A stretch of DNA of 64,000 nt from Phycisphaeraceae bacterium D3-23 (GTDB lineage Bacteria > Planctomycetota > Phycisphaerae > Phycisphaerales > Phycisphaeraceae), in the NCBI GenBank assembly GCA_039555135.1, contig CP114179.1, positions 496,001 to 560,000 of the forward strand, given 5' to 3'. A program made the translations under genes and the position numbers. Shown here one piece after another: positions 23,106-28,562 of this stretch; position 1 is the stretch's first letter, and each line of letters starts with the position of its first letter. Below the pieces are notes generated by a model that was given only the letters and a program-made list of their open reading frames with translations, did not search any database and was not told the DNA's origin.

Positions 23106-23164
23106 CGTTTTGTAAGTAGCGCGGCGGCACGGACGCCGCGCGTTTGCTGGTATCCTCCCCGGTC

Positions 23165-25171
23165 ATGCCCGACGCCGACCCCGCCTCCGGAAAGACGCCG
23201 CTCTGGCGCAACCTCAGCTTCACGCTGATGTGGACGTCCACCGCCGCGAGCGGCTACGGCGACCGGATGATCATGCTCGGCGCGCTGGCGATGCTCGGCG
23301 GGCTCGCGGAAAACTCCGACTCCAGCGCGATCCAGGCCTCGACCCAGTTCTGGTTCTTCCTGCCCTACCTCGTGTTCAACCTGTTCGGCGGCTGGCTCGC
23401 GGACCACCTGCCGCGCAAGTGGCTGCTGCTGGGCTGCGACGAGAGCCGGGGGCTGATCCTGCTGGGCTCGGTGATCGCGCTCGCCGGGCTCACGGGCTCG
23501 GCGCAGCTCCCCGAGGGCCACGCGTGGAAGGTCTGGGCAACGCTCGCCGCGATCGGCACCTTCGCCGCCATCTTCAACCCCACACGCAACGCGATCGTCC
23601 CGCAGATCGTCAAGCCCAACCAACTCCAGTCCGCCAACGCCGTCATCCTCGTCATCAACGTCGTCGCGTCGATGGTCGGGTTCGTGATCGGCAGCCGGCT
23701 GATCAAGCCCGACTCGATCGACTCGGTGCAGACCGGCCTGCTGATGGGGGCGCTGTTCTACCTCGTCTCGGGGATGTTCTTCGCGTTCATGAAGCCGGCC
23801 GCGCCGGTCGATGCCAACACAGCGAGCAACCGGTCGATGGGGCAGGCGGTCAGCTACGCCCGCGTCCACCGCCGGGTGTGGATCCTGATCCTCGTCAACG
23901 TGCTCGTGTGGGCCTCGGCCGCGGCCGTGTCGACCGGGATCCTCGGCGTGCTCCGCGTCCACCACGGGCTCTCGGGCAAACCGCTCCTCGAACAGTTCGG
24001 CATCATGTTCCCGCTGCTGGGGGTGGGCATGCTCGTCGGCGCGGTCGTCATCATCCTGATCCAGACTCGGCGGGAGTCGACCCTCGTCCTGACCGCCGCA
24101 CTCTTCGGCGCGGGCGTCTGTACGCTGGTGCTCGGGCTCGTGCCGGTCATGTGGGTCGCCTACGTCTCGTGCTTCGGCGTCGGGCTCTTCGGCAACATCG
24201 CCATCATCTCCGCGCTCACCGTGCTCCAGTCCATCTGCCCCAACTACATCCGCGGCCGAATCATGGGCCTCAACGCGATGATCAACACGATCTTCAGCGT
24301 CGTCGTCTACGGCGCGATCTGGCAGATGCCCAATGCCGACAAGGGCGTCGTCGCTTCCATGTCCATCATCGGTCCGATGCTCATCCTCGGCGGCATCATC
24401 GGCATGCTCCGCTACCTCCAGTCCGGCCCGATGCCCAACCGATTGGCCAACGCCTTCTGGCGCATCACCCGGCTCTTCTGCTACTCATGGCACCGGCTCA
24501 GCGTCACGGGCAAACACCACGTGCCAGGCGAAGGCCCGACCCTCATCGTCGCCAACCACACCACCGCGATGGACCCGTTCCTCATCCAGTCATCCTGCGT
24601 CCGCATGGTCCGCTGGCTGATGCTCACCAGCTACCGCATGAAGATCGCCGAGCCCTTGTGGCGCGCGATCGACCCGATCTGCATCGAGCACGACAAGAAA
24701 ACAGGCACCGCCAAGTCGGGCACGAAACAGGTTCGGCAGATCGTCGCCGAGCTCAAAAAAGGCGACGCCGTCGGCATGTTCCCCGAAGGCCACCTGCAAT
24801 ACGACAACCGCGAGATGAAACCGTTCGAGGACGGCGCGGCGGTGATGGCAAGACTCTCCAAATGCCAGATCGTCCCCTGCTGGATCGACGGCACCGTGCT
24901 CAGCAAACGCATGCTCATGCACGTCCTCAAACCCACCCACTCCACCGTCACCTTCGGCCCACCATTCACGCCCGATCCCGGCATGTCGGTCGAAGAACTC
25001 ACCGCGGAGATACGCAGACGTATCGTCGATGCCGGTCGCCGATCCGCCTTTTCTGTCGCGGGTTGCCCGAGTTGTGGGTATGACCTAAGGGGCATGTTCG
25101 AAGGTGGTTTAGACGCATGCCCCGAATGTGGCCATGTCATCTTCGCGCAACCTGCAGGAACATTGTCTTAG
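23165..25171 (+). CDS. MFS transporter / 1-acylglycerol-phosphate acyltransferase fusion with zinc-ribbon tail
   Basis: 668 residues. Residues 1 to about 430 form a 12-helix MFS transporter, with the loop WLADHLPRKWLLLGCDESRG after helix 2. Residues about 440-625 are a PlsC-type acyltransferase: N464HTTAMD470 (HxxxxD site) and MFPEGHLQYD. The last part, about 633-660, is a zinc ribbon CPSCGYDLRG...CPECGH. The first two parts match the order of lysophospholipid flippase LplT joined to Aas acyltransferase, so lysophospholipid import and re-acylation at the inner membrane is likely. The AMP-ligase part of Aas is missing. The zinc-ribbon tail is unusual. Confidence 0.88.
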   Translation: MPDADPASGKTPLWRNLSFTLMWTSTAASGYGDRMIMLGALAMLGGLAENSDSSAIQASTQFWFFLPYLVFNLFGGWLADHLPRKWLLLGCDESRGLILLGSVIALAGLTGSAQLPEGHAWKVWATLAAIGTFAAIFNPTRNAIVPQIVKPNQLQSANAVILVINVVASMVGFVIGSRLIKPDSIDSVQTGLLMGALFYLVSGMFFAFMKPAAPVDANTASNRSMGQAVSYARVHRRVWILILVNVLVWASAAAVSTGILGVLRVHHGLSGKPLLEQFGIMFPLLGVGMLVGAVVIILIQTRRESTLVLTAALFGAGVCTLVLGLVPVMWVAYVSCFGVGLFGNIAIISALTVLQSICPNYIRGRIMGLNAMINTIFSVVVYGAIWQMPNADKGVVASMSIIGPMLILGGIIGMLRYLQSGPMPNRLANAFWRITRLFCYSWHRLSVTGKHHVPGEGPTLIVANHTTAMDPFLIQSSCVRMVRWLMLTSYRMKIAEPLWRAIDPICIEHDKKTGTAKSGTKQVRQIVAELKKGDAVGMFPEGHLQYDNREMKPFEDGAAVMARLSKCQIVPCWIDGTVLSKRMLMHVLKPTHSTVTFGPPFTPDPGMSVEELTAEIRRRIVDAGRRSAFSVAGCPSCGYDLRGMFEGGLDACPECGHVIFAQPAGTLS

Positions 25172-25237: not shown

Positions 25238-26287
25238 ATGCCTAGACCCGTCACCCTCTTCACCGGCCAGTGGGCCGACCTGCCGTTTGAAACCATGTGC
25301 GAGAAGGCCGCATCCTTCGGCTACGACGGGCTCGAGCTCGCGTGTTGGGGCGACCACTTCGATGTCGACCAGGCCGCACGCAGCGACAAGTACTGCAAGG
25401 ACCGCTGGGAGGTCCTGTCCGACAACGGGCTCACGTGCCAGGCGATCTCGATGCACCTCGTGGGCCAGGCGGTGTGTGACCTGATCGACGAGCGGCACAA
25501 ACTGATCCTGCCCGAGGATGTCTGGGGCGACGGCAAGCCCGAAGGCGTGCGCAAACGCGCCGCGAAGAAGCTCGCCAAGTCCGCCAAGGCCTGCCGACGC
25601 TTCCTCAACAACAAGCCGGGCCGAGGAAAAAAGGCGGGGGCCAAGGGAGATGATTTTCCTGGGGTCGTCAACGGCTTCACCGGCAGCTCCATCTGGCACG
25701 CGATCTACGCCTTCCCCCCCACCGACCAGGCCTACTGGGACAAGGGCTACGCCGACTTCGCCAAGCGCTTTGGCCCGATCCTCGACGCCTTCGATAAAGA
25801 AGACATCAACTTCGCGCTCGAAGTCCACCCCACCGAGATCGCCTTCGACATCGCCACCGCGCAACGCGCGATCGATGCGGTCAAAGGACACAAACGCTTC
25901 GGCTTCAACTACGACCCGTCGCACCTGGGCTACCAAGGCGTCGACTACGTCAAGTTCCTCTACCAGTTCAAGGACCGCATCTACCACTGCCACATGAAGG
26001 ACGTCTGGTGGGGCCACGGCACGGGCGAGGTCGGCGTCTTCGGCGGGCACACCACCTTCGCCGACCCGCGACGCCACTGGGACTTCCGATCGCTTGGCCA
26101 CGGCGATATCAACTTCGAAGAGATCATCGTCGCGCTCAACGACATCCGATACGCCGGCCCGCTGAGCGTCGAGTGGGAAGACACCCGCATGGACCGCGAG
26201 CACGGCGCAACCGAAGCATGCGACTTCGTCCGCGCCGTCGACTTCCCCGGCAGCGACGTCGCGTTCGACGCACAGTTTGATAACTAA
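25238..26287 (+). CDS. sugar phosphate isomerase/epimerase family protein (TIM barrel)
   Basis: 349 residues. [38 protein letters not shown] is the typical AP endonuclease 2/xylose-isomerase-like barrel start. [39 protein letters not shown] and [16 protein letters not shown] hold the Glu, Asp, His and Glu ligands of the metal site. AGGAG lies 7 bases before the start. A conserved insertion rich in Lys ([18 protein letters not shown]) is present. The exact sugar or inositol substrate is not predictable. Confidence 0.88.
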
Positions 26288-26330: not shown

Positions 26331-26392
26331 ATCGGCGCAGCCCGAATCAAGCGTATAACCGCCTGCACCAAACGCCACAATGACCCATGCCC

Positions 26393-26446: not shown

Positions 26447-27649
26447 ATGGAACGGATTCCACGCGTGAAAAAAACAGACTCCCAAGAACACGCGGTCGGC
26501 CGCCCCATCACCCGCCGTCGGCTTCTCCAGTCGGCTGCGGCCTCCCTGGTCGCGCCAACCATTTTCGGCTGCGCATCAGCCCGACAGGTCGTCGAGCCGG
26601 TGCCCGGCCCGGCGCTCCCCGTCATCCCGCCGATCGTGCCGGCCCCCCCGCCGCTCGGCCCGCTCGCGCTCGACCCGCTGCCGATCGCGACCCTCCCCAG
26701 CCCGGAGCTCGGACAATCCCATGTCGTTCGATACGTCGCGGGGCTTCGCCCCTATCGGCGAGGCACCGTCCGCATCGAGCACGAGCCGCTGGACACCAAA
26801 ACCATCATCCACCACTACGGCCACGGCGGCGCGGGCTTCACCCTCTCCTGGGGCACCGCCGAAGAAGCCGCCGACCTACTCGCACGCCACCATGCACCGC
26901 CCCAGCGCGTCGCCGTCCTCGGCGGCGGCGTCATCGGGCTCACCACCGCGGTCGTCCTGCAAGAACGCGGCTACCGCGTCACCGTCTACGCCAAAGCCGT
27001 CACCCCCGACACCACCTCCGACCTCGCCGGCGCACAGTTCGCACCGTCGCTGGTCCAATGCGACAGCGACGCCCGGCTCAACCGCTGGGTCCGTGCCGCC
27101 GCTGAACGATTCCTCACGCTGCGCGGGGACGACTACGGCGTCTACGAACGCGCCAACTACACCACCGCCAACGCCGCCGCCGCGCTACGCAAACTCCCCA
27201 CCGACCTCTTCCCAACCCGACAGTTCCACCGCCTCCCCTTCGCCGGCCCGCCGCGCAGCGGGCGTGTGCATCAGACACTGCTCATCGAGCCGCCGATCTA
27301 TCTGCCACGTATGCTCCAGCGCCTGCACGAAGCGGGCGGCACACTCCTACCACGCACCTTCAACACCGCGCAAGACATCACCGACCTGCCACAAGCCGTG
27401 GCCGTCAACTGCCTGGGCCTGGGCTCGGGCGAGCTCTTCCCCGACCGCGCCCTCTCGCCGTTGCGCGGCCAGCTCGTCTATATGCAACCCCAGGCGCTCC
27501 CCTACCTCCTCAGCCACGCCGGCTACCTCTTCCCACGCAAAGACGCACTCGTCCTCGGCGGCACCGTCGAACGCGGCGTCAACGACGCGACCCCCAACGA
27601 CCGCGCCTGCCAAAACATCCTCGCAACCCACCGCCAATTCTTCGCGTAG
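26447..27649 (+). CDS. Tat-exported FAD oxidoreductase, circularly permuted D-amino-acid-oxidase fold
   Basis: 400 residues from the ATG at 26447; a GTG at 26465 is also possible. RPITRRRLLQSAAASLVAPTIFGC is a twin-arginine leader ending in a lipobox-like IFGC. The order of conserved blocks is odd: AGLRPYRRGTVRIE and IIHHYGHGGAGFTLSWG (residues 122-128 and around), which close a normal D-amino-acid oxidase, come first. The FAD Rossmann motif GGGVIG (159-164) follows, and the protein ends with YLFPRKDALVLGGTVERG...ILATHRQFFA, which normally precedes the first blocks. The pieces are otherwise complete. FAD-linked oxidative deamination of D-amino acids, or a related glycine-oxidase type reaction, in the periplasm is inferred. 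Confidence 0.85.
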   Translation: MERIPRVKKTDSQEHAVGRPITRRRLLQSAAASLVAPTIFGCASARQVVEPVPGPALPVIPPIVPAPPPLGPLALDPLPIATLPSPELGQSHVVRYVAGLRPYRRGTVRIEHEPLDTKTIIHHYGHGGAGFTLSWGTAEEAADLLARHHAPPQRVAVLGGGVIGLTTAVVLQERGYRVTVYAKAVTPDTTSDLAGAQFAPSLVQCDSDARLNRWVRAAAERFLTLRGDDYGVYERANYTTANAAAALRKLPTDLFPTRQFHRLPFAGPPRSGRVHQTLLIEPPIYLPRMLQRLHEAGGTLLPRTFNTAQDITDLPQAVAVNCLGLGSGELFPDRALSPLRGQLVYMQPQALPYLLSHAGYLFPRKDALVLGGTVERGVNDATPNDRACQNILATHRQFFA

Positions 27650-27653
27650 CCCG

Positions 27654-28562
27654 CTACTGGGCCAAACGCGACTCGGCATCATCGCCGCTTTCAGTCACAA
27701 CGACGCCCGCCACCCCAAGGTGCCCCGACACCGCGTCACGGTACTTCTCCGCCTCCCCCGGCGAAGGCAGCCCGTTGTGCCCGCCCTCGAACGGCACCAG
27801 CGTCCCGTTCGGTGCCGCCGCGAGCAGGTCCCGCGCATGCTGGTACGCAAAAATCTCGTCGTCCTGCGCATGCATAATCAGCACCGGCACATCGAGCCCA
27901 CGGAAGACACGCGCGGTGTAGAACGGGCTGCGCACGATGAAGGGCGGCACCCCAAATCCCAGGGCTTTACGCGCCACGCTCGTCCCGGTCGATTCCACAA
28001 TCACCGCAGCGCACGGCCGACGGTCCGCGACCTGCGCCGCAACCCCCCCACCGATCGAACGCCCATGGATGACGACACGCTCCGCATCCACTTCCGGCCG
28101 CGCCACCGCCTGGTCATAAAACGCCAGCGCATCCTCAACAATGTGCCTCTGCGACGGGCTCCCCGCGCTCCCGCCCGCACCGCCATACCCGCGGTACTCC
28201 GGCAGCAGCACACTCACGCCCAGCGCGTGATACAGATCAACAATCGCAAACTGATGGTCCACCAACTCCGCGTTGCCATGGAAAAACACAACCATCGGCG
28301 CGGGGCCGTCTTCAGAACTCCCGGGCGCGGGGATGAACCACCCTACGCTTGTGCCCTCATCCGTCTCGACCTCCAGCCGCACCGCGTCCCCATGCAGCGG
28401 GATCGGCTGCGCCTGCCCCGCCATCGCCGCCGGGAAGATCAGCTTGTGCTGGACCAAGAACAACAGCCCGCAGTAGACAAGGTAGATGACGACGACATAC
28501 AACACACTCCGAGCGTACCACGGCATGCGTCTGCGTTTCATAGGGGCTTGCTTCTCTGCCAT
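27654..28562 (-). CDS. membrane-anchored alpha/beta hydrolase
   Basis: 302 residues with an N-terminal transmembrane helix (about 20-38). MVVFFHGNAE is the oxyanion-side strand, LLPEYRGYGGAGG follows, and HGRSIGGGVA contains the nucleophile Ser; HAQDDE (Asp) and FEGGHNGL (His) complete the triad. It resembles the BEM46/ABHD13-17 group of serine hydrolases. Convergent with the oxidase gene, stops 4 bases apart. Substrate unknown. An internal ATG at 28541 is an alternative start. Confidence 0.85.
   Translation of the reverse strand: MAEKQAPMKRRRMPWYARSVLYVVVIYLVYCGLLFLVQHKLIFPAAMAGQAQPIPLHGDAVRLEVETDEGTSVGWFIPAPGSSEDGPAPMVVFFHGNAELVDHQFAIVDLYHALGVSVLLPEYRGYGGAGGSAGSPSQRHIVEDALAFYDQAVARPEVDAERVVIHGRSIGGGVAAQVADRRPCAAVIVESTGTSVARKALGFGVPPFIVRSPFYTARVFRGLDVPVLIMHAQDDEIFAYQHARDLLAAAPNGTLVPFEGGHNGLPSPGEAEKYRDAVSGHLGVAGVVVTESGDDAESRLAQ

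Follow-up and report, generated by a model that had tools for sequence, protein, structure and literature searches.

The stretch of DNA analysed here (the window; 64,000 nucleotides of the Phycisphaeraceae bacterium D3-23 genome) contains a gene whose product resembles the D-amino-acid oxidases (DAAO) and D-aspartate oxidases (DASPO), with the blocks conserved in that family in circularly permuted order. The gene occupies positions 522447-523646 of the 4.62 Mb single-contig genome and its parts are listed in Table 1. An alternative in-frame ATG is present upstream, at 26387, and would give a 420-residue product. The GC contents of the three codon positions (0.74/0.51/0.83) and, over 391 codons aligned with the relative in L002, the differences at each position (104/72/139) both have the appearance of protein-coding sequence. 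As the initial annotation had quoted them, the blocks expected of a DAAO are each present once and in rotated order, namely, from the N- to the C-terminus, AGLRPYRRGTVRIE (98-111), HHYGHGGAGFTLSWG (122-136), GGGVIG (159-164), LVLGGTVERG and HRQFF, the last being near the final residue, Ala400. The adjoining genes encode a xylose-isomerase-like TIM-barrel protein (25238-26287, + strand) and an alpha/beta hydrolase (27654-28562, - strand). Elsewhere in the window, a 675-residue frame (23144-25171, + strand) looks by eye like a fusion of a major-facilitator-type transporter with an acyltransferase-like domain (NHTTAMDPF), and its tail resembles, again by eye, a zinc ribbon with two CxxC motifs.

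Table 1. Parts of the permuted gene and its product, with positions in the window
Feature	Position	Strand	Basis
Whole frame: DAAO-like FAD protein of 400 residues, permuted	26447..27649	+	ORF, order shared by relatives
Residues 1-42: Tat-like leader (TRRRLLQ and hydrophobic stretch) with lipobox-like Cys42 at its end	26447..26572	+	Sequence, leader rule, leader alignment
Residues 43-83: Pro-rich linker, model confidence mostly low	26573..26695	+	Sequence, shallow model
Residues 84-150: counterpart of the ordinary DAAO C-terminus	26696..26896	+	phmmer, rotation scan
GLRP, residues 99-102; Arg101 pairs with pig DAAO Arg283	26741..26752	+	Alignment
YGHGG, residues 124-128	26816..26830	+	Invariant in the 84-row alignment A2
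Residues 148-152: junction of old C-terminus to old N-terminus	26888..26902	+	Rotation optimum at residue 151; pLDDT
Residues 151-400: FAD Rossmann and substrate part, corresponding to the first three quarters of an ordinary DAAO chain	26897..27646	+	phmmer, rotation, structure alignment
GGGVIG, residues 159-164, dinucleotide-binding motif	26921..26938	+	Sequence, alignment
Tyr360, pairs with pig DAAO Tyr228	27524..27526	+	Alignment

Order of the conserved blocks and predicted fold

The Pfam DAO profile (PF01266) matches the window protein at 2.1e-30 (106.9 bits, cut-off 27.9) in two stretches, the best of which places residues 154-399 on profile positions 1-297. When solved structures were searched with phmmer, residues 148-392 aligned with residues 6-264 of human DASPO (i-Evalue 6.6e-20) and residues 86-147 with residues 272-336 of the same protein (i-Evalue 9.5e-8), and D-amino-acid oxidases were likewise matched in two swapped pieces. 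Judged from these alignments, a two-piece match in swapped order is far beyond chance, and the phmmer results, the rotation scan described below and the 80 relatives, all of the same order, together rule out a chance assembly of motifs. For the rotation scan, 27 bacterial relatives of ordinary order were made into a profile, against which each of the 317 rotations of residues 84-400 was scored. The optimum, a rotation starting at residue 151, is a single stretch of 241.2 bits (profile 3-315), whereas the native order is scored as two pieces, with 154.1 bits (residues 153-397) and 72.0 bits (85-147). In leave-one-out controls, scanned in rotation steps of 4, all 27 ordinary proteins scored best no more than 4 residues from their own order, and ordinary controls that were permuted likewise lost ~70 to 140 bits. 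Similarly, the rotated query matches human DASPO (6rkf) as a single stretch at 4.1e-34 and the unrotated query at 3.1e-31 in two stretches. The rotated form therefore aligns better, and as one stretch, in agreement with the clean circular permutation proposed in the initial annotation; the start of the permutation was also recognized there, but at residue 159, a few residues from the best cut at 151. Because its block order is rotated, we class the window protein as a circular permutant rather than as an ordinary member of the DAAO/DASPO family.

Past GHGG, the helix that ends an ordinary chain leads, with hardly any linker between them, into the strand that begins the FAD domain, and the termini of the permuted chain lie in the loop between the helix that precedes GLRP and the GLRP strand. 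Among 102 permuted proteins (a set from which L032 and duplicates were removed), the spacing from YGHG to GxGxxG is most often 33 residues (68 proteins) and ranges from 31 to 47. As ordinary chains already carry at least 23 residues from the YGHG Tyr to the chain end, the joining linker adds little. An AlphaFold2 model of residues 75-400, built with 82 permuted sequences, has a pLDDT of 96.3 and a pTM of 0.94, with a mean pLDDT of 94 at the junction (model block 71-80, residues 145-154), and supersedes a shallow five-sequence model (pLDDT 64.3, with residues 1-78 under 50). With VIA-align, Z scores of 19.8-22.6 were obtained to 17 listed DAAO/DASPO entries, for alignments that pair the model from residues 74-79 to residue 326 with the first ~263-286 residues of those chains; CmiS2 and glycine oxidases come next, with Z 17-18. 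Model residues 1-78, the moved piece, are left uncovered, as expected of a permuted chain since Foldseek and VIA-align alignments are both sequential and a sequential alignment covers only part of such a chain. Over the comparable part, model residues 79-326, an ordinary DAAO-type core is predicted, with Z 21-22 to DAAO.

The residues paired with Arg283 and Tyr228 of pig DAAO, which we take to be those that hold the substrate carboxylate, are widely retained. In the rows of the tree described below, the Arg101 column is Arg in 43/43 permuted, 27/27 ordinary and 3/3 eukaryotic proteins, and the Tyr360 column is Tyr in 37/43 permuted and 23/27 ordinary proteins. The 84-row alignment A2, all 84 members of which match PF01266 at 1e-5, has 18 invariant columns that include R101, P102, R104, H122, YGHGG and the three FAD-motif glycines. 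Excluded from A2 were L032, for its undetermined bases; L070, which is cut by a contig end; L002, which duplicates L012; L102, which is broken; L096 and L099, which are divergent and give split matches; and, in L101, a slip of 11 residues. The lid loop that has Tyr224 in pig DAAO, presumably a second Tyr on the active-site lid that is not universal in the family, falls in a gap of the window protein alignment and, with this loop missing, the specificity or substrate range may differ.

A permuted order could be mimicked by a misassembly, a frameshift or a broken gene, and a truly broken copy does exist elsewhere, on a Mesorhizobium plasmid (L102). The window frame is, however, uninterrupted, and the same order recurs in 80/80 kept loci from many assemblies and in four near genomes (G001, G002, G007, G012), so that we consider this explanation exceedingly improbable and the gene, as initially annotated, not broken. 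Nor do we give any appreciable weight to the suggestion that an ordinary DAO-fold protein has acquired an unrelated N-terminal domain with GLRP/GHGG-like motifs and lost, or diverged in, its own C-terminal piece. The FAD part alone does match DAO normally, as that suggestion would predict, but the N-terminal piece by itself aligns with the DAAO C-terminus (9.5e-8; 72.0 bits), the chain stops before a second GLRP/GHGG and, with a strict pattern, none of the 102 loci has two such motifs. Misassembly and an unrelated N-terminal domain were the two outcomes that the initial annotation had named as contrary to a permutation, and neither holds.

Relatives, distribution and origin

Full-length permuted copies are present in 5 of 61 near genomes (G000, G001, G002, G007 and G012), and four kin genomes keep the permuted order, with identities of 41-63%. 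When the named genomes were scanned, at least 592 stretches with the pattern were returned, at least 571 of them encoding a relative. The best 80 of these 571 were kept, and hmmsearch gave one colinear match to the permuted profile for each of the 80. Based on record titles, the best 80 of 571 come from about ten phyla (Planctomycetota, Pseudomonadota, Acidobacteriota, Gemmatimonadota, Myxococcota, Actinomycetota, Verrucomicrobiota, Bacteroidota, Cyanobacteriota and Zixibacteria), with Myxococcota, Cyanobacteriota and Zixibacteria contributing one record each, and most of the records are metagenome-assembled. The homologues of the same order that had been anticipated in related genomes are thus found there and also in distant ones. 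Where an annotation was seen on such genes, it was only 'FAD-dependent oxidoreductase'.

In samples of individual groups, both the permuted and the ordinary form look uncommon at the thresholds used. Among the matches listed for 294 Planctomycetota genomes at E 1e-3, a threshold that also admits other FAD proteins, at least 5 genomes have the permuted form and at least 7 the ordinary form (one split over contigs). At 1e-15, and with first-look candidates scored in part in many of the genomes of this census, the permuted and ordinary forms number 1 (the centre genome) and 11, respectively, in 119 Actinomycetota, 8 (including the centre genome) and 3 in 99 Acidobacteriota, 1 (the centre genome) and 0 in 114 Gammaproteobacteria, and 6 (including the centre genome) and 0 in 115 Alphaproteobacteria. 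A search of 49 genomes with a permuted gene, at 1e-12, found both forms together in one, G370 (the genome of L071). Two acidobacterial genomes have several copies, with five long permuted matches and one fragment in G353 (the genome of L040) and four permuted copies in G547 (the genome of L187). The permuted copy on the Mesorhizobium onobrychidis plasmid (L102, 2974-4037) is frameshifted and annotated as two FAD genes; a reading of this locus as a naturally split gene was rejected, as it is a frameshift, located at the FAD motif, that interrupts the frame.

For phylogenetic analysis with IQ-TREE, 43 rotated permuted proteins, chosen from the 102 to have pairwise identities under 58%, were combined with 27 ordinary bacterial, 3 eukaryotic and 5 glycine-oxidase-like outgroup proteins (78 rows). 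The permuted rows form one clade, on a branch with support of 100/99 that is present in 100% of 200 bootstrap trees, and a quick tree also recovers this clade (SH-aLRT 99). To judge from these trees, the permutation is a single old event. Deeper branches among the ordinary proteins are poorly resolved. L108 is the sister of the permuted clade in the quick tree (82) but the careful tree has no starred branch at that position, and for this reason we do not name a donor lineage. A strict pattern for duplicated intermediates, with two GLRP..GHG motifs, found none with two among the 102 loci, 90 having one motif and 12 none.

Leader, gene neighbourhoods and possible function

The initial annotation had proposed a Tat-type leader with a lipobox-like Cys. 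The TRRRLLQ motif, the hydrophobic stretch and Cys42 are all present in the window protein; the lipobox itself, IFGC, is loose, and that of the close relative L002 is LTGC. In the leader alignment, Cys is at this position in four of five rows and is replaced by Phe in L004. The genome that encodes the window protein has a TatC gene, and it is reasonable to infer from the leader that the protein would be folded before Tat export. By rule, a Tat-like leader is present on 88/102 permuted proteins, 0/27 ordinary proteins and 33/191 neighbouring ORFs, the first figure having been 80/102 before the rule was widened on inspection of leaders such as RRRWL, and the 27 ordinary proteins being a small sample collected by way of the permuted profile or plasmid hits; exported oxidases of ordinary order may exist. 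A lipobox-like Cys follows the leader in 61/102 permuted proteins. The 14/102 proteins that fail the rule include some copies from Phycisphaerales, rhizobia, Caulobacteraceae and actinobacteria; of these 14, L084 starts at the edge of a contig and L054 appears Tat-like by eye. Leader state changes at least four times on the tree and, with 14/102 proteins lacking a leader by rule, export is evidently not required of the permuted form. The association of the permutation with a leader is numerically strong but, as the permutation has one origin, amounts in effect to one event.

Among the ORFs given to Pfam (90/95 upstream and 93/96 downstream picks) there is no common neighbour theme, and many of the picks, including that upstream of the window gene, are likely antisense noise. 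In L005 (2-1411), the likely GTG start of the permuted gene overlaps the stop codon of a gene for a D-Ala-D-Ala carboxypeptidase (Peptidase_S13) in the sequence GTGA, an arrangement found for 1 of the 90 upstream ORFs scanned. It is possible that this pair releases and oxidises D-Ala in the periplasm. In eight Sphingomonadales loci (L017, L029, L034, L035, L044, L055, L059 and L064), an AAA (HslU-like) gene follows the permuted gene at a distance of ~37-68 bases. The L055 copy is also preceded by a proteasome-like (HslV-like) gene, with which the upstream ORFs of L034, L059 and L064 cluster, and in those loci the permuted gene seems to be set between hslV and hslU, names that are read from the Pfam matches Proteasome and AAA_2. 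Leaderless permuted copies in Rhizobium, Mycolicibacterium and Nonomuraea (L092, L050, L093) and in L102 adjoin a TPP-enzyme gene, annotated as such in L092 and L102, whereas for L050 and L093 the assignment is from sequence and clustering; the Rhizobium copy also adjoins a gene for a berberine-bridge-like FAD oxidase. The setting of the leaderless copies looks like that of a different, cytoplasmic pathway. Our best guess at a function is the oxidation of D-amino acids outside the cytoplasm, for which the gene neighbourhoods, through the one locus L005, give thin support.

Taken as a whole, the window protein is very probably a natural circular permutant of the DAAO/DASPO family that was re-cut once and that, in most of the relatives sampled, is a putative exported FAD oxidase. 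The ordinary N- and C-termini would have been close enough for joining, and an ancestral gene would have been duplicated or fused head to tail and then re-cut, once. The resulting protein presumably binds FAD and oxidises a D-amino acid, with Arg101 and Tyr360 holding the carboxylate and the electrons passing to oxygen. In this bacterium and most of the sampled relatives it would fold with FAD in the cytoplasm, be exported by Tat and often be anchored by a lipid, and might then act beyond the cytoplasm, with D-amino acids released from peptidoglycan as a possible substrate. As the permutation moves the FAD strand away from the N-terminus, a leader and a flexible linker could be attached with the cofactor site untouched. 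That this freed N-terminus is the reason for the spread of the permuted form is our hypothesis, and the leader also varies within the clade. A still broader proposal is that one ancient permutation freed the N-terminus from the cofactor site and so made possible, in some ten phyla, a new class of oxidases, exported by Tat and anchored by a lipid, that would break down in the periplasm the D-amino acids shed as the cell wall turns over and would make hydrogen peroxide there; it is put forward only tentatively and is less likely than not.

The permutation might also be real and have no connection with export, as a neutral accident in a lineage that happened to gain a Tat leader, and to this we assign a likelihood somewhat short of even. 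The 14/102 proteins that fail the leader rule and the four or more leader changes on the tree would fit such an accident, as would the ordinary-order DAO-fold entry 3dme, titled 'conserved exported protein'; the distribution of leaders, on 88/102 permuted and 0/27 ordinary proteins, argues for a connection, although these are non-independent events. It is also conceivable, but rather unlikely, that the permuted protein has another chemistry, either as a periplasmic dehydrogenase that passes electrons to a cytochrome or quinone or as an enzyme for some other amine. Genes for a cytochrome c and for a DsbD-like cytochrome c biogenesis protein are located beside the Kozakia (L096) and Niveispirillum (L099) copies, respectively, the leaderless rhizobial and actinobacterial copies have a TPP-enzyme-like gene nearby, joined in Rhizobium by a gene for a berberine-bridge-like oxidase, which suggests another pathway, and the Tyr224 lid loop is missing. 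Against another chemistry, Arg101 is retained in 43/43 and Tyr360 in 37/43 permuted tree rows, the nearest solved relatives carry oxidase names, and the window protein scores far below the cut-offs of the NCBIfam D-amino-acid dehydrogenase models.

Comparison with known flavoenzymes

D-amino-acid oxidase is a textbook, much-studied flavoenzyme, and natural circular permutants are a known kind of protein variation. As the permutation is old, arose once and has many descendants, two questions become testable, namely how a Rossmann enzyme that binds a cofactor copes with permutation and whether selection can favour a permutation for the terminus that it frees for export. A natural circular permutant of D-amino-acid oxidase seems to be undescribed in the open-access papers searched, no report of one having been found in their titles and abstract openings; the main text of a survey of new DAAOs (PMC9844085), to the extent that it was available, has no mention of permutation, motif, signal or C-terminal. 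Of the 92 NCBIfam models that the window protein matches, the best 25 all score it below their cut-offs. The 84 members of A2 match 13 NCBIfam families, and the window protein is below the cut-offs of all seven of its own. The permuted profile matches 17 solved sequences at 1e-10 and, as the FAD part begins at chain residue 2-21 in these, all 17 are of ordinary order.

Glycine oxidase ThiO (TIGR02352) and other members of the DAO superfamily resemble the window protein in the FAD domain, with VIA-align Z scores of ~17 for glycine oxidases, but ThiO has the ordinary order and the window protein reaches 65.6 bits against the TIGR02352 cut-off of 250.8. Ordinary-order bacterial DAAO-like proteins (e.g. 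L108-L113, L164-L174 and L193-L195) are closer, in that the rotated window protein matches their profile with 241 bits and they group with the permuted clade in a DAAO-like set relative to the glycine-oxidase-like outgroup. They differ in having the FAD strand first and a chain end soon after GHGG, and in that none of 27 passes the Tat-leader rule. With the DAAO/DASPO family itself (human DASPO 6rkf, pig DAAO 1an9/1kif, yeast DAAO 1c0i; PF01266), the window protein shares the blocks, once each, the GLRP Arg, the active-site Tyr, the FAD motif and the predicted fold over the comparable part. It is distinguished from that family by having the last ~67 residues of the ordinary chain first, with new termini before GLRP, by a leader and linker in front, and by a shorter lid loop.
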